Below are positions 9,519 to 14,730 of a stretch of 64,000 bases of DNA, one piece after another. The translations under genes and the position numbers were made by a program. The notes below the pieces were generated by a model. The model was not told the DNA's origin, searched no databases, and worked only from the letters and a program-made list of their open reading frames with translations. The stretch is from Chloroflexota bacterium (GTDB taxonomy: Bacteria > Chloroflexota > Anaerolineae > Promineifilales > Promineifilaceae): NCBI GenBank assembly GCA_018004935.1, contig JAGNBF010000015.1, forward strand, positions 1 to 64,000, in the 5' to 3' direction. Numbering within the stretch: position 1 is the first letter of the stretch; every line of letters begins with the position of its first letter.

Positions 9519-9593
9519 AAGGCCTGAGCTTGTCGAAGGCCTTTGGTTGCGGCAGGCTCAAACAACGTCACCGCACTTTATTGAGAAGATACA
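9519..9593. repeat. Family F repeat, right half (GATAC/GTATC end)
   Basis: GGCCTGAGCTTGTCGAAGGC and ACTTTATTGAGAAGATAC match the copy between dctQ and dctM (57593-57693). The terminal GTATCTTCTCAATAA, read on the minus strand, encodes the last residues and the stop codon of the neighbouring gene. Confidence 0.8.
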
Positions 9594-12133
9594 GGTGGTG
9601 CATAAAAAAACTGATTACACACCCCCAATCCATGAGGTGTCCGCCACTCCAACCCCTCATACGGATTCACCAATAAAATCTCGACATCACTCACATTGAT
9701 CAACCATTGCCCATCATCCGACCAAATCGGGATACTGAAAAAAAGAATATCTCCCACCGTTACCGGAACTATCTGTATCGCTTCGGTTTCCCGGTTCAAA
9801 AACGCCAACTGCGACTGCAATTCCTCTGATCCCCCACTCAAATCAATGAACAGTTCAAACAAGCCGTCCGGCGAATAAGTAGGTAGGGACATGTTGTTGA
9901 TTGAACGTGGATCAATGGAAATCAGCGACTGCCAGCTTTCATCCCACACCAGGTCAAGTACAAAATATTGGGGGACATCATCCCCATGGGGCAACACCAA
10001 CACCGACAGATTATGGCTATCGCCAGGACGCGCCACCGCCCAAATCATGTAATAAGAATCATTGCCCACATCCTGAGGCAAAAGGCCGAGCATCTGCTCA
10101 TGGGTCAACAAGGGCTGTGGCGACGGGCCATAAGTTGTCTCACCTATATACAAATCAGTCGTGCTGATGAATTCCCCATCTACCATCTGGTATTGGAAGT
10201 AACCAAAATGGGTATTGTCAATCCAAAACGGCATCTGTCCCAGGCCAACCTCATTGATTATCTGGCCGTTGCGATCGGCCAGGCGAAGGTTGATGGTACT
10301 GTTTACCCCTTCGTAAAAATAATCATCAAGTAAGAGCATCAACTGTCTATCTGGCGACCAGATAGGCATCCCGGCAATCTGTTGTGGCTGGCACTGACCG
10401 CCGGAGCACTCATCCAGATTAACCAGCCAATGTTGTGGGCTTTCGTTGCCATCCCGGCGGTAACTCTGAAAATAGAAGTAGTTCTCTGGTGACTTGCCGC
10501 CCAGGAGTTGCAGGTAGGGATAGGGTGTGGTGAAAAGCACCTCGTTTAGGGGGGCCTGGGTAACGATGTTTGAGAGGCCATGACGCTCTACGACGAGTAC
10601 CCGGTCTGTGCCGATGAGTTGATCCATCACGTAACCGCCGGGAATGGCCTGGAAGAAATTAAGGGCGTCGGAAGAGGGGAATGTGGGTGTTTCGCGGGTG
10701 TCCAGCCGGGTGATGCTCCATTCGTCTGTTTGGGGTTGGTAGGTGTAGATGTTGAACGCACCGATGTTGTTGGTGCAGGCCAGGTATAGTTGACCGGTGG
10801 GTAGGGAGGGGATGCTCGCGGCCGCGGCCTGTCGCTGAACAAATTGCATCCATTCGGTATTAAACATTTCCTGGCTTTTGATTAGCCCCAGGACAGATTG
10901 TAGCCATTCCCAAAACGAGATCCCTGGTTGCATCCCTTGTTGCCACAAGGCCAGATCGACATCGGGGTATTCACGGGCCAGAAAATCCACCAGCGTGTAA
11001 AGCGAGATGGCATCTACCCCAGAGTCATAATTGATGCGGGAGCGAAGCCAGATGAAGGCTGTGTCAGTGGGTACATCCATTGGGGTGAGTTGGGCGTATT
11101 GTTCCGTTGTGAGCGGCCACGGTTGCAGGCCGAGAACGCTCAACTCTTTATCCAGAAAGGCGCGGAAAAAGAGGCCATGATCACAACATTCGTAGCCCAA
11201 AAAGCGGGCTATCGCCAGAGAAACCACCGGGGTAGCATAACCACGCATAATGGCCTGATAACCTGCTTCATCGGTGGGTAAACCCACAAGGGTGGGCGAA
11301 GGCAAGCGGAGAGTGCCTTCGGTGGTAATAATTTCTTCCATGTCCAGCAGGGTGAAGAAGGGTTGCGGGTTGCGGGTGAGAAGCAGGGTGATGGGGAGAT
11401 TGTCCCTACAGGTAACGCCAGGGAAGGTCTGGCACATTGCCAACAGTTGTTCGTTCAGGTCTTTGGCTAAACGGATGGCAATGGCTTCATCACGCTGGTT
11501 ATAGCGCACCGTCAGATATTGCTTCTTAATGTCTACCGTTTCGCCCCAGAATTCGTCGAGGGGATCGGCACGGAGCCAGCGGCCACTGCCGCGCCGGTAG
11601 ATGGCGGTGTGTTGCAGGCGGATGGTTTCGCTGGTGGTGGCACTGCCACTGAGCAAATATTCTTGTTCGTAGATGATTTCGGCGGAGAGCAGGTCGGGGG
11701 CGAGGGTAATGGTGATGGGTAGGGTGGGGGTCGCGGCCGCGTCACTCAGCAGGATGCCGCTTTCCTCCCACCAGCGCAAACCAAAAGCAGTACGATCCAT
11801 AAATAACCCTTCACTGACGAGTTGGCGTTGGACATCAGCCCAGTCAGGGGTACGGCGGGAAAGGTTGAGGCGGAAGAGATCGAGATCGCCACTCGCGGCC
11901 GCGTTCTGGCTCAACTGGTGGGCGGCCAATACGTCTTGCTCAGCGCGGGCGGTTGTTTCTTTGACCTGCTCCTGAATGCGGGTGTAAATGACGATGGTGA
12001 TGAGGAGCGCGGCCGCGAATAGCCCCAACACCCAACCCCACGGTAGTCGCCGCTGGGGTTTCGGTGGCGGTTGCGGAGGGGGATCATTCCACCCCCCTTC
12101 TTCATCAGTTTGCCAGGAAAAATTTTGTGACAT
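9578..12133 (-). CDS. Large membrane-anchored protein with propeller-like repeats, tandem paralogue 1
   Basis: 851 residues, function unknown. There is a short acidic/Pro-rich cytoplasmic head, one membrane segment at about residues 33-52 (GWVLGLFAAALLITIVIY), then a long outer part. Its middle (about 200-450) contains the phrase QRDEAIAIRLAKDLNEQL and cysteine pairs. The C-terminal half has PD40/TolB-like blade motifs (PIWSPDRQLMLLL, PTYSPDGLFELFI, PIWSDDGQWLINV). It is about as long as, and clearly homologous to, the next gene upstream. The Cys-Cys in GYECC and the phrase DEAGYQAIM are shared. No HExxH or other catalytic motif is seen. Its last codons (VSSQ-stop) come from a family F repeat. 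Four GCGGCCGC sites. Confidence 0.8.
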   Translation of the reverse strand: MSQNFSWQTDEEGGWNDPPPQPPPKPQRRLPWGWVLGLFAAALLITIVIYTRIQEQVKETTARAEQDVLAAHQLSQNAAASGDLDLFRLNLSRRTPDWADVQRQLVSEGLFMDRTAFGLRWWEESGILLSDAAATPTLPITITLAPDLLSAEIIYEQEYLLSGSATTSETIRLQHTAIYRRGSGRWLRADPLDEFWGETVDIKKQYLTVRYNQRDEAIAIRLAKDLNEQLLAMCQTFPGVTCRDNLPITLLLTRNPQPFFTLLDMEEIITTEGTLRLPSPTLVGLPTDEAGYQAIMRGYATPVVSLAIARFLGYECCDHGLFFRAFLDKELSVLGLQPWPLTTEQYAQLTPMDVPTDTAFIWLRSRINYDSGVDAISLYTLVDFLAREYPDVDLALWQQGMQPGISFWEWLQSVLGLIKSQEMFNTEWMQFVQRQAAAASIPSLPTGQLYLACTNNIGAFNIYTYQPQTDEWSITRLDTRETPTFPSSDALNFFQAIPGGYVMDQLIGTDRVLVVERHGLSNIVTQAPLNEVLFTTPYPYLQLLGGKSPENYFYFQSYRRDGNESPQHWLVNLDECSGGQCQPQQIAGMPIWSPDRQLMLLLDDYFYEGVNSTINLRLADRNGQIINEVGLGQMPFWIDNTHFGYFQYQMVDGEFISTTDLYIGETTYGPSPQPLLTHEQMLGLLPQDVGNDSYYMIWAVARPGDSHNLSVLVLPHGDDVPQYFVLDLVWDESWQSLISIDPRSINNMSLPTYSPDGLFELFIDLSGGSEELQSQLAFLNRETEAIQIVPVTVGDILFFSIPIWSDDGQWLINVSDVEILLVNPYEGLEWRTPHGLGVCNQFFYAPPVSSQ

Positions 12134-12137
12134 AGGA

Positions 12138-12235
12138 AGAAAGTTATTGGTGTATTGGTATATCAGTTAATTCGTTTTAGGCCAACGGACTGGCAATAAC
12201 CAATACACGTATAGACGAATACACCCTCGTTCTCC
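12138..12235. repeat. TATTGGTG-type short-unit hairpin
   Basis: GTTATTGGTGTATTGGTATA and, 40 bases on, AATAACCAATACACG are inverse. It separates the two large paralogues. Confidence 0.7.
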
Positions 12236-12243
12236 AACAGGCG

Positions 12244-14730
12244 CTACTCCGGTTCGGGCACATAGAAATAGCGATTACAAAAGGAGAAGGTGTGGGGAAT
12301 ACGGCGGATATATTGGGCAGAAGGGGCGACAAGTAAAATTTCGTTATTCGCCAGTTGAATGAGCCATTGACCGTCGTCTGACCAAAACGGAAAAGTGATA
12401 AATTCATTGAGGGTATAATTTTGTTCGGTTCCGGTCGCCAGATCAATAATAACCAGTTCCATGTCAGAAATGGGTGTGCCCAGCAAAATGAGATATTGGC
12501 CGTCGGGTGAATAGAAGGGAAACCAGGTGGCTCCGGTATCACGAATAACCTGGATGCCCTGAATGGTTTCCCAATTTTCATCCCAGGTTAGTAAAACGGG
12601 CACAAACTGTTCATTATCATCCTGACTGATAGCTAAGAGGACAGCGGAAGGGGGGCTAGAATGCGGCCGCACAACCAACCAGGCTAACAAAAGCGAACGA
12701 TTTATGAACCCTTCTAGTTGAGGCAGGATATCGGTACTGGTAAGATGAACCTTCGGCTCAGACTCACCCACAACGCCAATCCACATCTCTACAAACTGTA
12801 ATCCCTCATTTATCCGAAAGAAGCCATAATGGGTTTCGTCTAACCAGAAGGGCAAATAACCCGTTCCTAGCAGGGCAAGATGTTCCACCGTGTTATCAGT
12901 GAGATAAAGGAATGAATTAAGTTCTTCACTGCCATCATCAGCGGTGAGGAGTAGATGCTGACCATCAGGCGACCAGGTGGGTGTTCCCGATAGCGGCCGC
13001 AACATACACCCCTCCCCATCACATTGGTCCAAATCGGCCAGCCAATATTGAGCATTGGCCACACTATTTGCCTCAGAGCCATAAGTGGCAAAGGTGAAAA
13101 AACCCTCTGGGGGGGATCCGTTCAGATAAGAGATGAGGCTGTAATCTGGGGAATAGGTCAGATCACTATTGAAGGTGGTAGTAATCACTGTAGATTGGTT
13201 ATTACCATCTATAAACACCAACTGTTTTCCCTCGCCGACAAAATTCATCTCTACATGCCCGTCTGCCCACGGCTCATAAAAACCGGTACTGAGAAAGGTC
13301 GAATCCCAGGTTGCGGCATCAATATCGTAGGTGAATAGCGTAGGAATACCCAAATCGGAGTTACAACTCATCTGCACCTGTCCCCCTGGCAGGGGCAATG
13401 GGGGGGGGTCGTTCTGGTATTGTTGCTGACTGTTGTAAACCAGCCAGCGTGACTCCAACAAATTAGTGCCCGGATCATCGGGGAGAACGTTTTCCAGCCA
13501 CCCTATAAACGTAACATCGGACTTGAGTTCACGCAACCAGTCGAGGGGGATCAGCGGGGGCTGAACGCCTGTAGTAAGGTAATCTACCAGGCTATACAAG
13601 AGGGGTAGGTCGGCATAATCGGCATAGTCGAGGGTGTTTTGTCCCCAGGAGCGTACCACACGAGCCAGCAATTCGCTTTGGGAAAGCGCGGCATAACTAT
13701 CTGGGGTCATGGGCCAGGTTTGCAGTCCCAGTTCACTGAGTTGCTTATACATGAAGGCATGGTAAAAGTAACCCCGGTAACAACATTCATAAGCGATGAG
13801 GCGAGAGATCGCGGCCGCGGCCAACGGTGCCGCATACCCCTTCACTATCGCCTGATACCCAGCCTCATCCAGGGGTAATCCCACCAGGGTAGGGGCGGGC
13901 AGGATAAGCTCCGCCTCGGCAGTAATAACATCTTCCAGGTCTACCAGACTGAAAAAACTGGCCGGATCACGGGTCAGACGCAGGTTTAGGTGTAGATCGG
14001 TTGGGCATTCCAGCGCAGGTAAGGCCACACACAGCCGTATTAGTTCATCATTCAAATCATCAGCCAGCCGTAAAGCGATGGCTTCGTCTCGTTGGGAATA
14101 ACTGAGCGTCAGATGAGAGCGTGCGGTGCTGATTAAGTCACCCCAAAATTCGGGTAAGGGATCAGCCAAAAGCCAGCGACCACTCCCCCGCCGATAAACG
14201 GCTGTATGTTGCAGGCGCACCGTCTGGCTGATGGCGCTATGACTAAGGAGTAGATACTCCTGTTCATAAACAATTTCTGCCGAGAGTAAGTCGGGAGCCA
14301 GGGTAATGGTGATGGGACGGGTGGGGGTCGCGGCCGCGTCGCTGAGGGTTAAATCTGTTTCTCCCCACCAGCGCAGGCCAAAGGCAGAACGATCAAAAAA
14401 CAGGCCGGTCATCACCAAGGCACGTTGCGTATCAGACCACACCGGGTCGCGGCGGGATAGGTTAGAACGGAAAAGATCAAGGTCTTGGGTGGCGGCCGCT
14501 TGCTGATTGAGTTGGTGGGCGGCTAACAAATCTTCTTTGGCGGTGGTGGTGGCTTCTCGCACCTGCTGTTGCAGGCGCAGATAGAGGACGAGGCTGATAA
14601 GAAACGCGGCCGCGAACAGTGCAACAAACCAGGGCCAACGAAAATGTTTTGGGGGAGGCGTAGAACCTCTGGGCGTTAATTCATCCCAATCTTTATCCTC
14701 ATCTGTGTGCCAACTGAAGTTTTCTGCCAT
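12244..14730 (-). CDS. Large membrane-anchored protein with propeller-like repeats, tandem paralogue 2
   Basis: 828 residues, function unknown. It has the same plan as its downstream neighbour: an N-terminal ENFSWHTDED-like head, one membrane helix at about residues 33-52 (VALFAAAFLISLVLYL), a long outer domain and PD40-like blades near the C-terminus (PTWSPDGQHLLL, PFYSPDGQYLILL, PFWSDDGQWLIQL). Shared stretches such as FGLRWW, LLSAEI.YEQEYLL and YRRGSGRWL place it as a tandem duplicate that has diverged strongly in its second half. GCGGCCGC sites at 14330, 14492 and 14606 fall at the same protein positions as 11733, 11895 and 12009 in the other copy. The weak ribosome site leaves the start tentative. 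Confidence 0.8.
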   Translation of the reverse strand: MAENFSWHTDEDKDWDELTPRGSTPPPKHFRWPWFVALFAAAFLISLVLYLRLQQQVREATTTAKEDLLAAHQLNQQAAATQDLDLFRSNLSRRDPVWSDTQRALVMTGLFFDRSAFGLRWWGETDLTLSDAAATPTRPITITLAPDLLSAEIVYEQEYLLLSHSAISQTVRLQHTAVYRRGSGRWLLADPLPEFWGDLISTARSHLTLSYSQRDEAIALRLADDLNDELIRLCVALPALECPTDLHLNLRLTRDPASFFSLVDLEDVITAEAELILPAPTLVGLPLDEAGYQAIVKGYAAPLAAAAISRLIAYECCYRGYFYHAFMYKQLSELGLQTWPMTPDSYAALSQSELLARVVRSWGQNTLDYADYADLPLLYSLVDYLTTGVQPPLIPLDWLRELKSDVTFIGWLENVLPDDPGTNLLESRWLVYNSQQQYQNDPPPLPLPGGQVQMSCNSDLGIPTLFTYDIDAATWDSTFLSTGFYEPWADGHVEMNFVGEGKQLVFIDGNNQSTVITTTFNSDLTYSPDYSLISYLNGSPPEGFFTFATYGSEANSVANAQYWLADLDQCDGEGCMLRPLSGTPTWSPDGQHLLLTADDGSEELNSFLYLTDNTVEHLALLGTGYLPFWLDETHYGFFRINEGLQFVEMWIGVVGESEPKVHLTSTDILPQLEGFINRSLLLAWLVVRPHSSPPSAVLLAISQDDNEQFVPVLLTWDENWETIQGIQVIRDTGATWFPFYSPDGQYLILLGTPISDMELVIIDLATGTEQNYTLNEFITFPFWSDDGQWLIQLANNEILLVAPSAQYIRRIPHTFSFCNRYFYVPEPE

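Follow-up and report, generated by a model that had tools for sequence, protein, structure and literature searches.

The 64,000-nucleotide stretch analysed here (the window: positions 1–64,000 of contig JAGNBF010000015.1 in the Chloroflexota assembly GCA_018004935.1, family Promineifilaceae) carries 100 copies of the octamer GCGGCCGC, spread over its whole length at 1.56 per kb, vs. a mean of 1.54 copies in dinucleotide-preserving shuffles. This octamer is the form taken here by a highly iterated palindrome (HIP) that runs through the family in several dialects, with the core CGGCCG; the sites are maintained genome-wide in a dialect-specific manner and leave their mark on protein sequence. We give a probability of about 0.55 to the reading that the palindrome is kept by a sequence-specific recogniser, most likely a conserved methyltransferase domesticated from a NotI-type restriction-modification system.

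Abundance of the octamer in the genome

The whole genome (7,977,649 bases; G000 in our numbering) contains 12,040 copies of GCGGCCGC, ca. 1.5 per kb, the highest count among 59 relatives and 400 genomes of the phylum, the next being 2,136. A 401 kb sample made up of the window and 20 further stretches (L001–L020) held 592 copies where 10.3 were expected from dinucleotides, with densities of 0.7–2.04 per kb in all 21 stretches; GCGGCCGC was its top palindrome, and GCGATCGC was absent from the listed top 8-mers. Twenty synonymous-codon shuffles of coding sequence averaged 61 copies and never exceeded 75, vs. the 541 present, and enrichment was alike in coding (56.4×) and non-coding DNA (53.6×). 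Dinucleotide and synonymous-codon nulls were used, whilst the reversed-pattern control CGCCGGCG (2 copies) was set aside as a poor null because GCCGGC is avoided in this genome. Spacing was near random (coefficient of variation 1.06). One-mismatch forms of the octamer were not enriched as a group (0.06–1.74×), those altered at an outer position standing at 0.61–0.91× of expectation, and GCGGCCGC outnumbers its one-off forms 74-fold here, which gives a per-site bias of ln 74, about 4.3. Both its density and its excess over composition are those of a HIP, and GCGGCCGC behaves as one.

The same sample has some further features. A C..G flank is favoured outside the octamer, CGCGGCCGCG accounting for 263 of the 592 sites. 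Other palindromes are strongly avoided: GAGCTC and CTGCAG are both at 0, GGGCCC occurs 6 times vs. 280 expected, GTCGAC 2 vs. 59 and GCCGGC 6 vs. 170, a sign of many restriction-modification systems. Elsewhere in the genome, a phage-like stretch (L031, contig C62) matches the host in octamer density (1.95 per kb) and encodes a C5 methyltransferase with 37 relatives in viral contigs. The sampled part of rpoB (L171, 3.6 kb) has no GCGGCCGC vs. ~6 expected at coding density (P = 0.0025); strongly constrained genes of this kind may resist the octamer.

Dialects of a common core across the family

In most of the family's 52 genomes CGGCCG is a common hexamer, but its outer pairs differ. We typed 44 of these genomes from fetched stretches, distinguishing an A dialect (ACGGCCGT), a T dialect (TCGGCCGA) and the G dialect (GCGGCCGC): the A dialect is present in 27 genomes of 13 genera (weakly in G030), the T dialect in two and the G dialect only in this genome, whilst ten enrich the core with any flank and four exhibit no CGGCCG enrichment. 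One of these four, G011 (L324–L327, L108), has TGCCGGCA instead (38 vs. 2.3 expected), a replacement palindrome with another core, and avoids CGGCCG (0.13×). Dialects differ even within one genus, where G031 uses TCGGCCGA and G016 has the core with any flank at 5.6 cores per kb. All 18 named public records nearest by rpoB, which are Chloroflexota metagenome-assembled genomes 80–84% identical in that gene and labelled Anaerolineae, Ardenticatenaceae and Promineifilum sp. among others, enrich CGGCCG (2.4–10.4×), and just four of 62 more distant rpoB-ranked records reach 2×. Among the papers listed by searches of an open-access library, which covers few subscription papers, we found no report of GCGGCCGC iteration or of HIPs in Chloroflexota.

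Sites are maintained within a dialect

Within a dialect the sites persist far longer than matched words, and between dialects they persist at about the background level. The closest comparison comes from six genomes of the A-dialect genus g22 (117 reciprocal gene pairs), with words matched in frame and degeneracy as controls. In pairs <70% identical, 186 of 303 aligned ACGGCCGT octamers were kept, amounting to 66, 61 and 44% in the three frames vs. 6, 0 and 6% of matched words. Where residues were identical, 160/167 octamers were kept vs. 82/329 matched words, and the residues themselves were more often identical at octamers than at matched words (e.g. 69% vs. 24% in frame 0). In polarised triples three of 89 octamers were lost vs. 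96 of 444 words of the same composition, and none of a small number (13) of one-off forms had gained the octamer. The per-site bias of 4.3 predicts a loss rate ~6% of neutral, in agreement with this conservation. Over separations of 60–600 bp, the nearness of a second site made no difference to retention (0.67, 0.62, 0.61), and spacing was near random (coefficient of variation 0.86–1.12); the bias is constant per site and is not a demand for even coverage, and selection and biased repair or conversion each yield such a bias. A lower share (0.22, n = 18) was kept among octamers on the g22 contigs (L151–L170, L099) that have a neighbour nearer than 60 bp.

Between genera, 981 of 989 reciprocal pairs found were aligned and divided into classes of 35–55%, 55–75% and at least 75% identity, the last probably dominated by rpoB, with sites recurring across pairs so that the following counts are not independent. 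From A genome to A genome the core was kept at 392/1,111, 41/151 and 813/1,090 sites in these classes, vs. 7, 12 and 18% of control hexamers, whilst from A genomes to this genome it was kept at 3/60, 6/71 and 15/55, vs. 3, 8 and 9%. The corresponding figures were 0/97, 2/54 and 42/208 for A genomes against non-enriched genomes and 3/57, 27/100 and 46/246 against any-flank genomes. In the last set the middle figure matches that between A genomes, which runs counter to our reading for the any-flank class. In-place flips from one dialect to another were also considered and were few: by best matches, 128 sites of this genome were aligned to A genomes, and the core was kept at 16 of them (11 reading exactly ACGGCCGT) vs. 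118 of 1,219 control hexamers, and by reciprocal matches it was kept at 3/45, 7/50 and 1/2 sites, these counts again not being independent.

The DNA motif shapes proteins

Of the 541 coding sites 335 read Ala-Ala-Ala and 206 lie in other frames. In sampled genes, 317 of 371 Ala-Ala-Ala tripeptides are written GCG GCC GCN with the octamer, where 10% would be expected from codon use, and the tripeptide is itself about 4.2–4.4× over expectation in this genome; the DNA therefore drives the protein. The other dialects exhibit different tripeptides: A genomes are enriched in Thr-Ala-Val (7.0×), Asp-Gly-Arg (3.8×) and Tyr-Gly-Arg (3.4×), and T genomes in Ser-Ala-Glu (4.7×) and Ser-Ala-Asp (2.8×). Each dialect thus enriches the tripeptides that it encodes, the DNA motif shaping proteins and not the reverse.

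A tandem gene pair in the window

Two tandem paralogues on the reverse strand, 851 and 828 residues long, had drawn attention in an earlier note, which claimed that three octamer sites are kept at matching positions in proteins much diverged elsewhere and took this to suggest DNA-level selection or biased repair. Gene a (9578–12133, 851 aa, with an N-terminal hydrophobic segment visible in the sequence) has a weak match to the PD40 beta-propeller family (PF07676, E = 1.9e-4) and carries four GCGGCCGC sites; gene b (12244–14730, 828 aa, PF07676 E = 5.9e-7) carries six. All three pairs align exactly: 12009–12016 with 14606–14613 (LFAAALL in gene a, LFAAAFL in gene b), 11895–11902 with 14492–14499 (QNAAASG and QQAAATQ, and not LFAAA as the earlier wording suggests) and 11733–11740 with 14330–14337 (SDAAATP in both). 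The divergence was also correctly described, with 353 of 819 residues identical (43%) and 66 of 189 fourfold or sixfold codons identical outside the shared sites. The remaining octamers are found in one gene only: 10818–10825 in gene a (QAAAASI, where gene b reads QQYQNDP) and, in gene b, 13811–13818 (LAAAAIS), 12993–13000 (LRPL, frame 2) and 12663–12670 (VRPH, frame 2).

Compared codon by codon, Ala codons are identical at 8 of 9 positions inside the shared sites vs. 6 of 16 at shared Ala elsewhere (Fisher p = 0.033), and the Ala-Ala-Ala tripeptides common to both products are exactly the three octamer pairs. However, this coincidence is weak as evidence because most sampled Ala-Ala-Ala is already written with the octamer: three double matches have a probability of ~0.39 even with independent copies, and the match adds nothing by itself to what the genome-wide rule predicts. 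A DNA-level force is upheld by the genome-wide and family-wide data and not by this pair, in which there is nothing special; it is genome-wide maintenance that explains the NotI sites common to these diverged paralogues. When the comparison was extended to orthologues (full-length rows only), other genera, whose dialects are not that of this genome, had different residues and lacked GCGGCCGC at the shared positions. The family of genes a and b is large and divergent with weak PD40 propeller matches, and has members in 50 of the 52 family genomes, often in tandem.

A candidate methyltransferase with a NotI-family neighbour

From gene neighbourhood and distribution we infer that the octamer sites may be written by a methyltransferase of 676 aa encoded outside the window (contig C49, locus L042: 8794–10824). 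It is DUF1156-like with Cys-rich insertions, its motifs running in the order I, long Cys-rich insert, IV (DPPY). Orthologues are present in 40 of the 52 family genomes (E < 1e-60), the 29 full or long ones given loci being 48–64% identical, and occur in 28 of 30 octamer-dialect genomes vs. 6 of 14 others (p = 5.5e-4 by genome, with G027 scored on a fragment and G004 on a partial match). Directly upstream on the same strand lies a NotI-family endonuclease gene (L042: 10860–11663, 267 aa; PF12183, E = 5.5e-11, 42.7 bits, cut-off 22), and the same order on one strand is found in G028 and G029. PF12183 occurs in just four of the 52 genomes, most relatives keeping the methyltransferase without the endonuclease. 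Four Cys are invariant in an alignment of six NotI-family sequences, which also have an acidic core in common, and the profile of this alignment matches the solved NotI structure (3bvq, E = 3.1e-4) with the Cys motif aligned; when single NotI-like proteins were compared with solved structures by phmmer, NotI was not recovered, the profile alone matching. NotI cuts GCGGCCGC, and EagI recognises CGGCCG. A NurA-like nuclease gene (L042: 7575–8780) adjoins the methyltransferase and follows it in five genomes of three dialects (G000, G001, G013, G031, G007).

Other candidate writers were tried and rejected. Dam was one, as a PF02086 protein of this genome (contig C20) is Dam-like (TIGR00571), but G452 and G005 enrich the core without a strong match. 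C5 methyltransferases (PF00145) are absent from G005, G003, G001, G002 and G018, all of them enriched; the other PF01555 enzymes form a patchwork with no orthologue common to the dialect genomes examined; Vsr (PF03852) was found in 0 of 10 genomes; and the NotI gene, confined to the four PF12183 genomes, does not serve as a universal writer.

Two observations on related genes may be added. At L029: 7210–9421 (contig C180 of this genome) a C5 methyltransferase gene overlaps a 421 aa gene that weakly resembles the NotI-like protein (E = 3e-8) and has a Cys motif, perhaps a second NotI-like system. In the T-dialect genome G007 the candidate methyltransferase (L320, contig C1) lies in two overlapping frames, a frameshift or a split gene.

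Proposed mechanism and alternatives

In the reading that we favour, a sequence-specific DNA-recognising system would act on every copy, coding and non-coding, with the result that few losses reach fixation and gains are promoted. A change in what the recogniser reads would let old sites decay as new ones accumulate elsewhere, leading to GCGGCCGC here, TCGGCCGA in a pair of genomes and ACGGCCGT in the majority of genera. The most likely recogniser would be the conserved methyltransferase, apparently domesticated from a NotI-type restriction-modification system: the NotI-family endonuclease still stands upstream in three genomes, and in most relatives only the methyltransferase is left. A methylated octamer would then either skew mismatch repair or take on a function under selection. 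A bolder statement, which we advance tentatively and at somewhat less than even odds, is that such a domesticated enzyme has repeatedly switched the outer base pair that it recognises, and nothing else of its specificity, and on several occasions within one family has thereby replaced thousands of sites across whole genomes. The proteomes would have changed along with the sites, Thr-Ala-Val, Ser-Ala-Glu/Asp or Ala-Ala-Ala taking the place of ordinary sequence. If true, a modification enzyme would be driving its own sites through entire genomes, favouring and not depleting them.

A number of observations weigh against the methyltransferase as recogniser. G012 has strong ACGGCCGT enrichment (60 vs. 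0.5 expected) with no methyltransferase detected, and the octamer-dialect genome G002 is likewise without one; conversely, genera g4 (8 of 8 genomes) and g20 (2 of 3) carry the gene, yet show no flank preference in typed genomes. Genus g6 and G016 enrich CGGCCG strongly without the gene, so that core enrichment without flank choice occurs both with it and without it, and G005 enriches CGGCCG 6.5× with no PF00145, PF01555 or PF02086 match. At genus level the association between gene and dialect has p = 0.045, uncorrected for phylogeny. This genome's enzyme groups with those of A-dialect genomes, and an alignment that includes one G and one T sequence revealed no clear dialect-determining residues. 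NotI-family enzymes elsewhere adjoin other classes of methyltransferase, and adjacency therefore does not fix the recognition sequence. Finally, motif IV is DPPY, a form seen more often in adenine enzymes, whereas no adenine occurs in GCGGCCGC. Elhai (2015, PMC4390886) places a GGCC methyltransferase inside the Dam-like Pfam family, and DPPY accordingly does not exclude a cytosine target.

Among the alternatives, a non-methylating protein (a nucleoid, segregation or repair factor) might bind and select the sites, its association with the methyltransferase being incidental. The genomes that break the association (G012, G002, g4, g20, g6) would then be no surprise, per-site conservation suits any selected binding site, and the NurA-like neighbour hints at DNA repair; however, the one-mismatch forms show no enrichment taken together, unlike those of typical graded binding sites, and an exact palindromic octamer with a clean switch of the outer pair resembles restriction-modification specificity, so we regard this as unlikely. 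The sites might instead be DNA uptake sequences, with transformation preferring DNA of the local dialect and recombination spreading it. Dialects round a constant core at 1–2.5 per kb resemble such sequences, and a molecular drive would act alike in coding and non-coding DNA, but the uptake sequences quoted in PMC1939737 are not palindromic and have enriched one-mismatch forms, an enrichment that is lacking here for the group of such forms. We regard uptake as quite unlikely.

Elhai's model, in which repair directed by G-methyl-C accumulates palindromes to about one per kb as a mark of coverage, agrees with the density of near 1.5 per kb found here, and with the co-occurrence of cyanobacterial HIPs and matching methyltransferases reported in PMC4390886. 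It calls for a G preceding the methylated C, but at that position most relatives carry A or T, and an internal G-C of the core would not account for the choice of flank. Moreover, a second site nearby (60–600 bp) does not lower retention, the sites are not evenly spaced, core density climbs to 5.6 per kb in G016 and the outer-position one-off forms are not enriched (0.61–0.91×); we consider the model improbable enough to disfavour it. That codon or amino-acid bias makes the octamer by accident, through Ala-rich proteins and GC-rich codons, might be read from the 335 of 541 coding sites that encode Ala-Ala-Ala, but it is refuted: synonymous shuffles yield 61 sites and not 541, non-coding DNA is equally enriched, the other 206 coding sites lie in other frames, and Ala-Ala-Ala is itself 4.4× over expectation.

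Comparison with known systems

NotI restriction-modification shares the octamer GCGGCCGC, and in this genome and two relatives a gene of its endonuclease family immediately precedes that of the candidate methyltransferase. However, restriction sites are usually avoided and these are enriched, most relatives have no endonuclease, and a GCGGCCGC specificity for the pair is putative. Uptake sequences of the Neisseriaceae and Pasteurellaceae are likewise short words at ~1 per kb that differ between lineages, with dialects round a common core, but they are non-palindromic and their one-mismatch forms are enriched. As with the orphan methyltransferases Dam and CcrM, the candidate is solitary, conserved and chromosomal with no restriction partner in most relatives, but it is DUF1156-like with Cys-rich insertions, and Dam and CcrM targets are not known to be enriched to this degree.

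The kind of element is already known from cyanobacteria, in which Elhai (2015, PMC4390886) describes HIP1 (GCGATCGC) together with alternate HIPs: palindromic octamers at 0.5–2.5 per kb, far above expectation and in coding sequence, that differ by lineage and for which matching methyltransferases are suspected. The palindrome described here differs in its sequence, in its core (GGCC vs. GATC) and in its host, in the sharing of one core with switched outer pairs by a whole family, in a maintenance that is dialect-specific, and in one-off forms that are not biased to the first and last positions. New are the dialects of the core, their dialect-specific persistence, the enrichment of their own tripeptides and a candidate writer. 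The reason for HIP1 abundance in cyanobacteria is a long-standing question, and it can be approached as a comparative test in a second, unrelated family, where one core occurs in three or more outer-pair dialects, each dialect has its own conservation and there is a candidate enzyme. The palindrome also reveals a DNA-level force strong enough to set the tripeptide frequencies of a proteome, which matters for models of codon usage, alignment and phylogeny.

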